From: a bacterium
GTDB taxonomy: Bacteria > UBP15 > UBA6099 > JAJRTR01
Reading direction: 5' to 3'
Assembly (NCBI GenBank): GCA_024278215.1
Contig: JAJRTR010000104.1
Location: 1 to 19,236 of the forward strand
Length of the DNA: 19,236 nucleotides
The stretch's first letter is position 1. The number at the start of each line of letters is the position of its first letter. Below the pieces are notes generated by a model, which was given only the letters and a program-made list of their open reading frames with translations, did not search any database and was not told the DNA's origin. The position numbers and the translations under genes are program-made. This document shows, one piece after another, positions 2,512-19,236 of the stretch.

Positions 2512-3077
2512 TCGCGGTTATCGACAATTACGATTCTTTTACATACAATCTAGTACAGTACTTCTACGAATGGGAGCGCAACGTAAAGGTGTTTCGCAAC
2601 GATGCGATCTCCGTGGAACAACTAATTAAGTTGAAGCCTGATTACCTTGTGATATCGCCCGGACCGGGAAAGCCCGGCGACGGCGGGATCAGTATGGAGG
2701 CGATCGAGGCGTTCGCGGGCCGCGTGCCGGTGCTGGGAGTGTGCCTTGGACACCAGTGCATCACGCAGGTGTTCGGTGGCCGCATTATCAGGGCGCGCCG
2801 CCTCATGCACGGAAAGGTTTCAAAGATTTATCACGATGGAAAGACTGTTTTCAAAGGCATCGACAACCCTTTCATCGCGACAAGGTATCATTCGCTGACA
2901 GCATCACCCGCTAAGATGCCCGATTGCCTGGAGGTAACGGCTAAAACGAAGCGTGGCGAAATAATGGGTGTACGCCACAAACAATTCCCTGTCGAGGGCG
3001 TTCAGTTCCACCCCGAATCGATACTGACCGAACCAGGGAAAAAACTTCTGAAAAACTTTCTTGATCTGAAATGCTGA
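2508..3077 (+). CDS. trpG: Anthranilate synthase component II, glutamine amidotransferase (TrpG)
   Basis: Class I glutamine amidotransferase that hydrolyses glutamine and passes ammonia to TrpE. The catalytic triad is visible: Cys79 in GVCLGHQ, His168 and Glu170 in FHPES. The SPGPGKP loop (50-56) forms the oxyanion region, and HGKVSKI is also family-typical. At 189 residues it is the usual length for a free-standing subunit. The TTG start at 2508 overlaps the trpE stop by 4 nt, indicating translational coupling. In many bacteria the same protein also serves PabB in folate synthesis (PabA role). That cannot be judged here, but the operon position supports TrpG. No TrpD domain is fused to it. 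Confidence 0.95.
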   Translation: MIAVIDNYDSFTYNLVQYFYEWERNVKVFRNDAISVEQLIKLKPDYLVISPGPGKPGDGGISMEAIEAFAGRVPVLGVCLGHQCITQVFGGRIIRARRLMHGKVSKIYHDGKTVFKGIDNPFIATRYHSLTASPAKMPDCLEVTAKTKRGEIMGVRHKQFPVEGVQFHPESILTEPGKKLLKNFLDLKC

Positions 3078-3673
3078 ACAAACTTTTATACTACATTCCG
3101 ATGTTGACGCAGATGGCGACTGACGGACTGGATGCGGAAAAGGTGCAGCAGCACCTGGACCAGATGTCCGGCTGGGAAAAAATGATGCTCGCCTTCGAGT
3201 ATGGTGACCTCGCTGTTATTATCACCGGCGCGGCGTTGCTTATGGGGGTCTCGATCTTTGCATATATGTTCATCCGCAGGTGGAATATTTCAAGGATGGG
3301 ATATTTCCTTATTTCCGCGATGGTTGTCGGTGTGCGCATACAGAAACCGGATATTATTTTCTGGACACCTTTCGCTTTTGTCGCCGGACTATTTTCCGTA
3401 CTTATGTTTTTTCTTACGCAGAAAAACGTGGATTTCGATTCGCGAAAGGAACCCATGTATTTCCTGTTCAATGGTATGTGTCTTCTGCTGATCGCATTTC
3501 CCATGGGACGACCCACTGACTTTTTTCTGGTGACTATAGCTCTGATCTCGCTTCTGTCCTCGCTGTTTTTTGTTGTCACAAAGAAACATGTGCCGACTGG
3601 AAAGTTCAAGAAGCATGACGCGGACGAAGCAATTATGAATATCCTCGAAAAGAAAGCAAGGCGCCCGTTGTGA
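3071..3673 (+). CDS. Five-TM membrane protein of unknown function inside the trp operon
   Basis: I do not recognise this 200-residue protein. It has about five hydrophobic segments, near residues 46-68, 75-90, 95-116, 127-145 and 150-170. An amphipathic N-terminus of ~40 residues precedes them, and a basic, charged tail (171-200, Lys/Arg/Asp/Glu-rich) follows. No Cys pairs, enzyme motifs or cleavable signal peptide are evident. The ATG at 3071 overlaps the trpG stop by 7 nt, and its TGA overlaps the trpC start by 4 nt, so it is translated as part of the trp operon. It sits where trpD is usually found but bears no resemblance to a phosphoribosyltransferase. A role in transport or sensing of an aromatic metabolite is only a guess. 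Confidence 0.85.
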   Translation: MLNKLLYYIPMLTQMATDGLDAEKVQQHLDQMSGWEKMMLAFEYGDLAVIITGAALLMGVSIFAYMFIRRWNISRMGYFLISAMVVGVRIQKPDIIFWTPFAFVAGLFSVLMFFLTQKNVDFDSRKEPMYFLFNGMCLLLIAFPMGRPTDFFLVTIALISLLSSLFFVVTKKHVPTGKFKKHDADEAIMNILEKKARRPL

Positions 3674-7655: not shown

Positions 7656-7678
7656 CTAACCCGGCACGGCCGGAACCA
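7656..7678 (+). repeat. 23-nt hairpin repeat (copy B) between pilT and gmhB
   Basis: CCGGC (7661-7665) and GCCGG (7669-7673) with loop ACG form a 5-bp stem. The 23 nt match 609-631 except for two bases at the stem-loop junction, and match 10919-10941 closely. Here it stands alone, without the ~60-nt continuation seen in the other two copies. It sits 19 nt after the pilT stop and ends 18 nt before the gmhB start, just ahead of the gmhB Shine-Dalgarno. No T-run follows, so termination is doubtful. Confidence 0.6.
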
Positions 7679-7696
7679 TACAGGAGAAACAAAAAC

Positions 7697-8748: not shown

Positions 8749-8775
8749 TGTCGTGTCAACAATGAAAAGACATAG

Positions 8776-8953
8776 GAGCCAATTGCAAAATTCTGATTCT
8801 GCTACGGTCGGCTGTTATTGTCCATAGCTGCGTTGTCGGCATAAAATCGTCCTCGACGTACTTTACAAGTACGCCTGCGAGGATTTTACACCTCCGCCTT
8901 GCTCTGAACAATTTCGCTCGACCTCGCTACGAACATAATTTTGCAATTGGCTC
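8776..8953 (+). mobile_element. Fold-back MITE-like element, family 1, copy 2 (complete, with TSD)
   Basis: This is a complete 178-bp element. It starts with GAGCCAATTGCAAAATT (8776-8792) and ends with the exact reverse complement (8937-8953), giving 17-bp terminal inverted repeats. ATAG occurs directly on both sides (8772-8775 and 8954-8957), as expected for a 4-bp target duplication. The body is also palindromic: left-arm segments such as GGTCGGCTGCTATTGTCC mirror GGTCGAGCGAAATTGTTC of the right arm. The centre (8843-8887) is a hairpin bounded by AAAATC and GATTTT. No protein is encoded. The features fit a MITE mobilised by a transposase encoded elsewhere; a structured RNA or bidirectional terminator role is possible. 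Confidence 0.85.
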
Positions 8954-9156
8954 ATAGGTGTGCATAAAACACTCCCATTCTGTCAGGCACGGACCGGTGA
9001 GCGTGTCGTGCGGTTGTGCCGACATTCAATGTTTGATACGAAACCAGTTGACCCGGTTTTCCCATTAGGAAATCAGGAAAAACGGGTACATTATGTTCTG
9101 ATAGTCATCACATAATCAGTTAGTCAGGGATGAAGAAGCAACGATAGGCAACACCT
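8954..9156 (+). promoter_or_regulatory. Upstream region of the membrane beta-propeller gene with inverted repeats
   Basis: This non-coding stretch contains two inverted repeats. The first is a 12-bp stem with one mismatch, ACCCGGTTTTCC (9051-9062) against GGAAAAACGGGT (9076-9087). It overlaps a TTGACC that could be a -35 box, but no good -10 is placed correctly. The second is ATTATGT (9090-9096) with ACATAAT (9110-9116), spaced 13 nt, operator-like. A five-codon frame (ATG at 9130) ends just before the proposed gene start and is probably chance. Regulatory meaning is inferred only from symmetry and position. Confidence 0.35.
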
Positions 9157-10881
9157 GTGGCTTATGACCATTTTAACTTGACCAGCACAGACAAAGTAAT
9201 TGCCCCTGTCGCTACAGACGACCTTTCGGGCGTCGCTTCCAGAGCGGCATATATCGTGTTTGATGCGATTGCTTATGTATTGTTGATATTTCTTTGCGTG
9301 CAAGCCGCGCTGCTGAGGCTCGAGAATCTTGTTGATTTGATTCATGTGCTCACAGTGATATTCTTCTCCGGCATATACATTTTCGCTTCCCGTGCGATAT
9401 ACACGAAATTGTTCAAAGCGCCGCTCGTCTTCGGACTGATGCTGGAGTACATCGCTGTTTTCTCTTTTGTGGCGATCCCGGCATTTCTTGTTGTCCGGGG
9501 ACCGGAGGTCCAAAACTTCTGTTGGCTCACACTGTGGTGGCATCAGTTGCCGGCGCTGCTCGGAATGTTCTTGAAATTATCGCCATTTGTAGCAGTATGC
9601 CTGATGATTGCTTTTTGCGTGTTCACATCTCAGGTGGTAAGGAAAAGACCGCAAATACCGATGCTTGCTGTCTCAGCAATCGGGGTGTTGCTGCTGTTGC
9701 AATACATCGTGATTATGCGACACGGATTCAGGTTTATGGAATTCGTCGCGCTGCCGGCGCTGATGATAGTAACTTTATTATCTGCGTTTAGAGGACAGCC
9801 CCGGCTGTTCGCGAAGTCACTGCTGCTTTTTTTCATCGCGGTGTTCGCAAGCTGGCATTTTCTCGGTTTGCTGCCGGTAAATCATGAGAGATCGTTCATC
9901 GAGTCCTCAGATGTCGACAAGGTATATCCCCCTGCAGATGTTACGGCGCCGGTGCCGGCGGCGCTTGTGAAAGACATCGCGTTCGACCCGGCGGGTGATA
10001 TGTTTTATATCGCGGGCGGCAGATCAGGATATGTGCTGGCTATAGACACAGGTTCGGGTGTACTGCATCATATATTGTTCAAGAATGCCGACATCTCAAG
10101 AATTGCAATTGACAGGTGGACCCACGACATGTTTGCTCTGGACAGGGCCGGAGCGGATGTGCACCAGTTCGCGCCGGGCTCGCTGCGAGCCATGACAAAA
10201 CACAGCGTAAAAACCGACTGGGGCTTCGTTCCAGAAAAAATCATTCCATTCGACAATCAATTTTATGTAACATATTCCGAGTATCCCGCCATAGCGGAAT
10301 TCAGTACAGCAGGATTCAGACAGGAAGGTGGGATCAGTCTGAGACCTGCCGGCATGACGACATTCAGGACAGGCGCGTCGGATATGGTGGCAGTGCGCGA
10401 AGCAGGCGCTCTCTATGCTGTCGCAGGTGCCCACGGTACAAAGGGCGAATCGATGATCGTCAGGATCGATCCCGCGCGCTTCGTGGTCAACGCACAGGTT
10501 ATAGTCCCGGATTATGTGCGTTCTCTTGCTGTCGACAGGAAAAAGTTGCGCCTGTACGCCGCCGGTTATTTCAAGAACAACATATACGAAATAGACCTGA
10601 AAACGATGACTGTGGCGCGGTCGCTGCCGGCTCCCCCGGCTTGCTCGAACGTCATTTTTGATGCCGGTCGAAAACTGATATATTCCACGGGTTACTTTAA
10701 CGGTGAATTGATGATAGTGGATGCGCAAAACGGAAGAATGCTTGATATGCGGCGCACATGCAATAAAATAGAGGCAATGAACCTCGACGAAAGAAGAGAC
10801 CGACTCTATATTGCATGTGTAAATGGTGTTTATAGTGCGTCACTCGAAAAATATATTTCGACGCCCATGCAAAGCAATTGA
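9157..10881 (+). CDS. Seven-TM protein with C-terminal extracytoplasmic beta-propeller, unknown function
   Basis: The 574-residue protein has two parts. Residues ~30-240 hold about seven hydrophobic segments (near 30-52, 62-82, 88-113, 140-158, 167-187, 193-211, 219-239). Residues ~267-566 show a repeated pattern of strands ending in IAIDR, LAVDRKKLRLYAAG, IYEIDLKT and MNLDERRDRLYIA, typical of YVTN/NHL-like beta-propellers. Lys/Arg-rich loops (SRAIYTKLFK, VRKRP, RGQPRLFAK) alternate so as to put the N-terminus inside and the propeller outside. I do not recognise a named family. The GTG start at 9157 has AGG 8 nt upstream; no in-frame ATG is near. The gene stands alone between two direct copies of the fold-back element. 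Binding of a ligand or partner by the propeller is a guess. Confidence 0.85.
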   Translation: MAYDHFNLTSTDKVIAPVATDDLSGVASRAAYIVFDAIAYVLLIFLCVQAALLRLENLVDLIHVLTVIFFSGIYIFASRAIYTKLFKAPLVFGLMLEYIAVFSFVAIPAFLVVRGPEVQNFCWLTLWWHQLPALLGMFLKLSPFVAVCLMIAFCVFTSQVVRKRPQIPMLAVSAIGVLLLLQYIVIMRHGFRFMEFVALPALMIVTLLSAFRGQPRLFAKSLLLFFIAVFASWHFLGLLPVNHERSFIESSDVDKVYPPADVTAPVPAALVKDIAFDPAGDMFYIAGGRSGYVLAIDTGSGVLHHILFKNADISRIAIDRWTHDMFALDRAGADVHQFAPGSLRAMTKHSVKTDWGFVPEKIIPFDNQFYVTYSEYPAIAEFSTAGFRQEGGISLRPAGMTTFRTGASDMVAVREAGALYAVAGAHGTKGESMIVRIDPARFVVNAQVIVPDYVRSLAVDRKKLRLYAAGYFKNNIYEIDLKTMTVARSLPAPPACSNVIFDAGRKLIYSTGYFNGELMIVDAQNGRMLDMRRTCNKIEAMNLDERRDRLYIACVNGVYSASLEKYISTPMQSN

Positions 10882-10918
10882 TGTGAGCGACTGTTTCACA
10901 CATTTACCATGCTTACCC

Positions 10919-11001
10919 CTATCCCGGCAAAGCCGGAGCCAATCATGCCGCATTTTCGTGCCCAAACAAATGCGATTTGAGCACGGCATACATAGTTTTT
11001 A
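10919..11001 (+). repeat. ~83-bp intergenic repeat (copy C)
   Basis: Second copy of the block at 609-691. The small hairpin is CCGGC (10924-10928) / GCCGG (10932-10936) with loop AAA. The larger hairpin is CGTGCCCAAA (10957-10966) / TTTGAGCACG (10976-10985). Bases 10950-10975 are nearly identical to copy A, whereas flanking DNA is unrelated. A further small stem, GCGACA/TGTCGC (11010-11026), follows. The repeat lies 37 nt after the stop of the beta-propeller gene, so it may be a 3' end structure. There is no T-run. Confidence 0.65.
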
Positions 11002-11085
11002 TCTGCCTGGCGACAACAAGTGTCGCTAACGAAGCTTACGAAGCGATAAGTGCATATTATCGTATTCGGCAAAGAAAAGACGTAA

Positions 11086-11262
11086 GAGCCAATTGCAAGA
11101 TTCTGATTCTGCTGCGGTCGGCTACTATTGTCCATAGCTGCGTTGTCGGCATAAAATCTTCCTCGACGTACTCTACAAGTACGCCTGCGAGGATTTTACA
11201 CCTCCGTCTTGCTCTGAACAATTTCGCTCGACCTTGCTACGAACATAATTTGCAATTGGCTC
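11086..11262 (+). mobile_element. Fold-back MITE-like element, family 1, copy 3 (complete, with TSD)
   Basis: This 177-bp copy lies in the same orientation as copies 1 and 2. It starts GAGCCAATTGCAAGATT and ends AATTTGCAATTGGCTC, so its terminal repeats have small changes relative to copy 2. GTAA flanks both ends (11082-11085 and 11263-11266), a 4-bp duplication different from the ATAG of copy 2, which supports independent insertion. The central hairpin is conserved apart from one base in the left stem (ATCTTCC instead of ATCGTCC). A second, unrelated MITE-like element begins 11 nt further on. Frames opening inside it are not genes. Confidence 0.85.
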
Positions 11263-11273
11263 GTAAGATGAGT

Positions 11274-14122: not shown

Positions 14123-14183
14123 GAGCTGCCTGCCGGAGTCTGTTCGCAGCGAGGTCGTGGAAAATTGATCAGAGCAAAGAAGT
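14123..14183 (-). repeat. Decayed family 1 fold-back element (one arm) between divergent promoters
   Basis: The stretch GTTCGCAGCGAGGTCGTGG (14142-14160) followed by AAAATTGATCAGAGCAAAG aligns with the right arm of family 1 read in reverse (GTTCGTAGCGAGGTCGAGCG then AAATTGTTCAGAGCAAGG). The terminal GAGC is at 14123, preceded by GTAA, the same four bases that flank copy 3. The bases between GAGC and GTTCG have diverged, and the other arm is missing or unrecognisable. I read this as an old, degraded insertion in the alaC/uvrB intergenic region. Confidence 0.6.
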
Positions 14184-19099: not shown

Positions 19100-19236
19100 G
19101 AGCCAGTTGCAAAATTATGTTCGAAGCGAGGTCGAGCGAAATTGGTCGGAAGCAAGGCGGAGGTGCAAAATCCCCGCAGGCGTACTTGTAGAGTACGTCG
19201 AGGATGATTTTGTGCCGACAACGCAGCTGTTGACAA
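19100..19236 (-). repeat. Fold-back MITE-like element, family 1, copy 4 (3' part outside window)
   Basis: An inverted family 1 copy starts with GAGCCAGTTGCAAAATT at 19100, three bases after the uvrA stop codon, and runs off the window end. Only 137 bp are visible, covering one arm, the central hairpin and part of the other arm. The flank on the visible side is ATAA (19096-19099), which includes the last base of the uvrA TGA. This copy is somewhat more diverged than copies 1-3 (for example GGTCGGAAGC for GTTCAGAGC). Confidence 0.82.

Follow-up and report, generated by a model that had tools for sequence, protein, structure and literature searches.

A conserved, strand-specific hairpin module within a family of 178-bp miniature transposable elements

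The window analysed here, a stretch of 19,236 nt that constitutes the entire contig C77 of a 4.55 Mb bacterial genome assembled in 207 contigs, contains an almost palindromic element that raises the question of whether its long hairpin is a by-product of inverted arms or a structure with a role of its own. The features first assigned to this element, a length of 178 bp, exact 17-bp terminal inverted repeats and ATAG on both sides, are all present in the sequence, and the suggestion that its arms pair over nearly their full length into one long hairpin is borne out by a predicted folding energy of -68.9 kcal/mol, compared with -40.8 +/- 3.8 kcal/mol in shuffled sequences (z -7.5). The initial annotation was also correct in counting four copies plus one decayed arm within the window, and in noting GTAA on either side of a further copy (Table 1). 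The ATAA before the copy that starts at 19100 and the GTAA before the decayed arm are present as described, but a single flank cannot prove a duplication. Both complete copies have the same left flank because both sit in another repeat family, a dispersed repeat (GTGTCGTGTCAACAAAGAAAAGACGTAAGATGGGTTAGCG...) located at 8750-8775 and 11066-11085, of which there are many empty copies genome-wide. More intergenic repeats are present in the window at 604-688 and 10914-10998, and at 609-637, 7656-7684 and 10919-10947, and one of the window's other intergenic repeats has CCGGCATAGCCGG-like palindromes. Two predicted proteins have no Pfam match, one of 574 aa (9157-10881), encoded on the downstream side of the complete copy, and another of 200 aa (3071-3673), encoded inside the trp gene cluster.

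Table 1. Locations of the hairpin element, its parts and its other copies within the window
Feature	Coordinates	Strand	Basis or remark
Complete element, 178 bp	8776..8953	-	minus strand folds best (GGCGTACT..AGTACGTC)
Target duplication ATAG, left	8772..8775	.	flank comparison
Target duplication ATAG, right	8954..8957	.	flank comparison
Terminal inverted repeat GAGCCAATTGCAAAATT	8776..8792	+	17/17 match to other end
Terminal inverted repeat, opposite end	8937..8953	-	17/17 match
Internal hairpin module, conserved across phyla	8805..8925	-	approximately positions 30-150 of model R1
Apical hairpin GGCGTACTTGTAAAGTACGTC, invariant G.U pair	8855..8875	-	alignment and covariation analysis
Second complete copy, 177 bp	11086..11262	-	GTAA at 11082-11085 and 11263-11266
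Copy truncated by contig start	2..152	-	sequence and model match
Copy truncated by contig end	19100..19236	+	ATAA before it, adjoining uvrA stop codon
Decayed arm of a copy	about 14127..14180	+	sequence

When up to three mismatches are allowed, a 20-mer from the centre of the element matches the genome 243 times, and its reversed control once. A profile search of 2.35 Mb (52% of the genome) identified 246 copies, 127 of them full length, that together occupy 33 kb (1.4%), and by proportion the whole genome would contain ~475-500 copies. Contig ends hold 33 of the 246, probably because assembly fails where copies are nearly identical. When flanks were tabulated, as the initial annotation had proposed, exactly four identical flanking bases were found at 82 of the 126 full-length copies with both flanks and five at only 6; among the first 103 copies, 66 match at exactly four bases, compared with a mean of 2.3 with shuffled flanks. 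These 66 exact duplications comprise 46 different 4-mers that are AT-rich and follow no stricter rule, which disposes of the RTAR-like target preference originally suggested. Where copies interrupt other repeats, the joined flanks, with a single 4-mer retained, correspond to uninterrupted sequence elsewhere in the genome, as exemplified by ACCCATCTTACGTCTTTTC, in which the copy at C199:5166 (TTAC) can be compared with the uninterrupted site at C186:10805 and with others. Such sites show insertion accompanied by a 4-bp duplication, and the empty sites called for by the initial annotation have therefore been found at paralogous repeats, in the element's own genome only. A 46-bp derivative in this genome (G000 C6:16952-16997) has both ends, with TATC on each side, and has lost the interior, as though a copy had first inserted and its hairpin had then been deleted.

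The 178-bp element is thus a MITE, a non-autonomous transposon, being short and having no transposase-sized frame inside, and the original claim of a genome-wide family with 4-bp target duplications holds. Bacterial MITEs are less than 500 bp in length, have terminal inverted repeats, direct repeats in younger copies and an intergenic location, and are expected to give rise to stem-loop transcripts (PMC10969869). The window element is likewise short, with terminal inverted repeats and a target duplication of constant length. It differs from MITEs in general in having an interior that is conserved across phyla, with compensatory changes, one preferred strand and varied ends.

This interior, missed in the initial annotation, is a conserved, strand-specific hairpin common to bacterial phyla. 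A pattern describing the apical hairpin, scanned against one genome per species from 84,980 species, occurs in at least 83 stretches among the matches listed, with hosts among these that include Nitrospira, Acidobacteria (including Bryobacterales), Delta- and Gammaproteobacteria, Aminicenantes, Aegiribacteria and others, and the surroundings of the matches are fold-backs with the same length and plan as the window element. Of 386 genomes sampled, 5 contain a slightly broader pattern, and none contains the reversed version used as its control. Sixteen elements, aligned without reference to structure, conform to a consensus hairpin of 50 pairs, 33 of which have pair-keeping changes on both sides; 90.1% of cells pair, compared with 72.4% after shuffling and 36-43% with slid partners, and the covariation score is 0.505 versus 0.191 in shuffled alignments, with none of 500 shuffles reaching the observed value. 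The sequences of the stems vary across lineages with pairing retained. The outer part of the module consists of an end stem, an internal loop GTAGCGAGG/CGCAGTAGA and a stem, and the inner part of an internal loop CAAGGCG/AACGCAG, a further stem and the apical GGCGTACT..AGTACGTC. Because an exact core pattern was used to collect the elements compared for covariation, the invariance of the core itself reflects how the sample was selected, but GCGAGG, CAAGGC, AACGCAG and CGCAGTAGA are outside the core and so their conservation was not imposed by sampling.

A covariance model, R1, built from such elements has matches at E <= 1e-4 in 31 of 290 genomes sampled across bacterial families, the best of them at 2.5e-37; nine candidates were scored per genome, so that copy numbers are lower bounds, and the E-values are rough. 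Many of the matches span model positions 30-150 only, and one positive genome holds at least 39. Window positions 8778-8951 are part of the model itself, but other copies, and a second fold-back family of this genome, are absent from it and are matched with E-values from 1e-28 to 1e-8. The relatives outside the training set that R1 matches are this second family, designated family B, and loci L055, L046 and L098. The distribution is patchy: of six genomes belonging to the same order, G005 alone has the module. In Rfam, there was no match at the gathering score, nor for the window element up to E 10, and blastn searches found no match to the window element in phages and none to an Acidobacteria element in plasmids. 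Four viral contigs contain the core; the remainder of the fold is lacking in all but L305, where it is weak.

Folding is consistently better on one strand. With RNA parameters, the GGCGTACT..AGTACGTC strand is the more stable in all 49 distinct elements, by a mean of 19.5 kcal/mol; with DNA parameters the same strand folds better in 48 of the 49, and there is one preferred folding strand in 19 of 19 lineages. The internal helices contain 41 G.U pairs, compared with 12 A.C oppositions; an inverted repeat not subject to strand-specific selection should show both equally. One G.U pair of the apical stem does not vary among the sampled elements.

The ends that surround this interior are not constant. 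Most elements of other phyla have CC(C/T)G(C/G)AT.. ends beside CTAG, CTAA, TTAA or TTAG. In a Bryobacterales genome (G064), one IS1380 transposase gene lies between CCCGCATTTCTCACC..GGTGAGATATCCGGG with CTAA on either side and a second is within a unit that begins CCTGCATTTCTCACC.. and has CTAG on either side, and the hairpins of this genome have the same ends and targets as these two IS1380 transposase units. Family B (C71:14501-14675, which is L139, and C34, C109 and others) contains this internal module as well; its ends, CCCGCATATTTCACC/GGTGAGAAATCCGGG, are of IS1380 type and its targets include TTAA and CTAT, the latter at C71:14501-14675. The hairpins of Acidobacteria, Nitrospira, Proteobacteria and family B that have CCYG(C/G)AT ends and YTAR-type 4-bp targets resemble the IS1380 copies L200 and L207 in both respects, and this subset can be classified as IS1380 derivatives. 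The window family, in contrast, has GAGCCAATTGCAAAATT ends rather than IS1380-like CC(C/T)G.. ends, and AT-rich targets, and so does not belong to this class. Yet other ends are found around the same module, GAGGCTCTAACAAAA in G005, GGGGCTGTTCAAAAAA at L018 and GAATGCTCAAAAAGTCC at the Nitrospira locus L098, and the ends also differ at the Sulfidibacter locus L090 and at L009.

The full transposon with the same 17-bp ends that the initial annotation proposed looking for was not found; there is no gene-bearing unit or transposase with these (GAGCC) ends in 2.35 of the 4.55 Mb (52%). An IS701-type transposase (PF13546, DDE_5), suggested by the 4-bp target, has no match in a search of the whole genome. 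The same genome-wide search for IS1380 (PF13701) detected one C-terminal transposase remnant (C44:16102-16254, L119), and IS1380 was rejected as the mobiliser of the window family as this is only a C-terminal fragment, the proximity of which to a copy is taken as chance. None of the three DDE_Tnp_1 genes in the genome has GAGCC ends. A 2.1-kb unit (C84:26022-28102) with TGAT on both sides contains ordinary genes for thioredoxin-like and nitroreductase-like proteins, and is also taken as a chance arrangement. Duplications of 4 bp are made by some IS1182 and IS5 elements (table in PMC3281130), so that several mobilising families are possible.

The median divergence of copies from the consensus is 5.6%, and 17 of the 126 are at least 98% identical to a relative. 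The duplication is kept in 13 of the 27 most diverged copies, compared with 75 of the remaining 99. The family was described initially as recently active; with these close relatives, and with contigs that break repeatedly in the element, activity likely dates to the fairly recent past. After insertion, individual copies decay with no visible constraint to keep the fold. G.U and A.C arise equally (22 each) from changes confined to one or two copies, such private changes break pairing in 108 of 142 cases, and selection for pairing in single copies was accordingly rejected. Changes common to many copies in this genome also show no G.U excess (5 G.U versus 9 A.C). The pair is kept in 13 of 24 shared changes versus 34 of 142 private changes (p 0.006), a difference that transition bias would give. 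Orientation relative to genes is near random, with a slight sense bias (45:28, p 0.06), as is orientation relative to GC skew, with no replication-strand bias, and no preferred gene context was found around the copies. When the two flanks of each copy are joined, an open frame of >=300 nt spans 34 of 70 sites, compared with 90% of random sites, and this is a fairer sign of intergenic preference than the absence of all of 114 copies from genes, a count that was set aside as circular given that a copy splits the predicted gene.

These features are, we consider, probably best explained together by a MITE that carries a strand-specific hairpin module serving its own spread. A DDE-type transposase supplied in trans would recognise the 17-bp ends, and insertion with a 4-bp stagger into AT-rich DNA would leave the 4-bp duplication. 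A folded single strand, as RNA or single-stranded DNA, would be required for the module to amplify itself or survive, such that only source copies that fold would leave offspring and inserted copies would then decay unconstrained. That the fold would serve the element's own spread is suggested by the near-random orientation to genes and GC skew, and the element is favoured over the host as the level of function because single copies fail to keep the fold. The points against this explanation include the following: the 52% of the genome searched contains no transposase with GAGCC ends, and none is provided by the three DDE_Tnp_1 genes; gene conversion could partly keep near-palindromic arms alike, although it leaves the strand asymmetry unexplained; and the changes shared by many copies lack a G.U excess. 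A broader proposal, which we regard as tentative and as having the balance of probability against it, is that these are bacteria-wide structured mobile modules that are not tied to one transposase and swap ends among DDE transposases, the hairpin being the unit of descent. Under this same tentative proposal, the hairpin would move or multiply by way of a folded single-stranded form, either RNA or DNA.

It is rather unlikely that the element is simply an ordinary MITE, derived from an insertion sequence by internal deletion, in which the arms fold merely as inverted repeats and the interior has no role. Every feature of a MITE is present, and the loss of the fold as single copies decay is as this explanation would have it, but leftover sequence would not be expected to show pair-keeping changes between phyla, internal loops that stay fixed, a preferred strand in every lineage or the same interior with different ends.

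A structured RNA used by the host, for example in mRNA processing or stability in the manner of Correia elements and RNase III, that happens to spread is an improbable explanation. The Correia (NEMIS) elements of Neisseria, like the window element, have terminal inverted repeats and hundreds of copies, with lengths of about 100-157 bp. They have a TA target and ends that differ from those of the window family. Correia sequences (L291 and other Neisseria viral contigs, L289-L301) have ACAAGGCG, GTAC-loop-GTAC and GCAACGC in the order of the module, and R1 has no match to them by default; with filters off, the strongest of 49 weak matches within 2 kb (6.9 bits, E 0.055) falls on the Correia element, in the same register. 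When present in mRNA, Correia elements are bound or cut by RNase III (PMC2649163), and this, with the strand-specific fold, intergenic location and slight sense bias of the window family, is consistent with a host RNA. Against it are the near-random orientation without a favoured gene context, the decay of copies without constraint on pairing and the patchy presence among relatives noted above. REPINs are short mobile hairpins with hundreds of intergenic copies, in which REP doublets are linked to Y1 transposases (PMC3116915), and the genome does have six Y1_Tnp matches (C56, C6, C115, C201, C59 and C112), IS200-like or RAYT-like, but movement of the strand-specific hairpin as single-stranded DNA by a Y1 (RAYT) transposase is highly improbable given the constant 4-bp duplication, which REPINs lack, true terminal inverted repeats, lack of replication-strand bias and one long hairpin rather than a REP doublet.

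Literature searches by element sequence returned nothing relevant, and a search of open-access papers found none that describes the superfamily as a whole. There are, in Geobacter metallireducens, 24 intergenic "predicted short RNA elements" described as a local RNA family (PMC2700814, additional file 4). The reverse complement (GGCGTAGC..GCTACGYC) of their central palindrome GRCGTAGCGCTGCTACGCC resembles the apical hairpin of the module, and a locus (L097) in a Geobacter MAG matches R1 (E 1.6e-6). Judged by their description, the G. metallireducens elements are probably an earlier sighting of the module family.

MITEs are usually taken for dead fragments of insertion sequences. The preferred reading, of a mobile element with a hairpin module that serves its own spread, would give the interior a role, and the presence of the fold in about a tenth of sampled genomes and with several types of ends suggests a structure that is selected during transposition or amplification. 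Such a module family would unite scattered local descriptions, such as the short RNA elements of Geobacter, and a single model would serve the annotation of a family that breaks assemblies.
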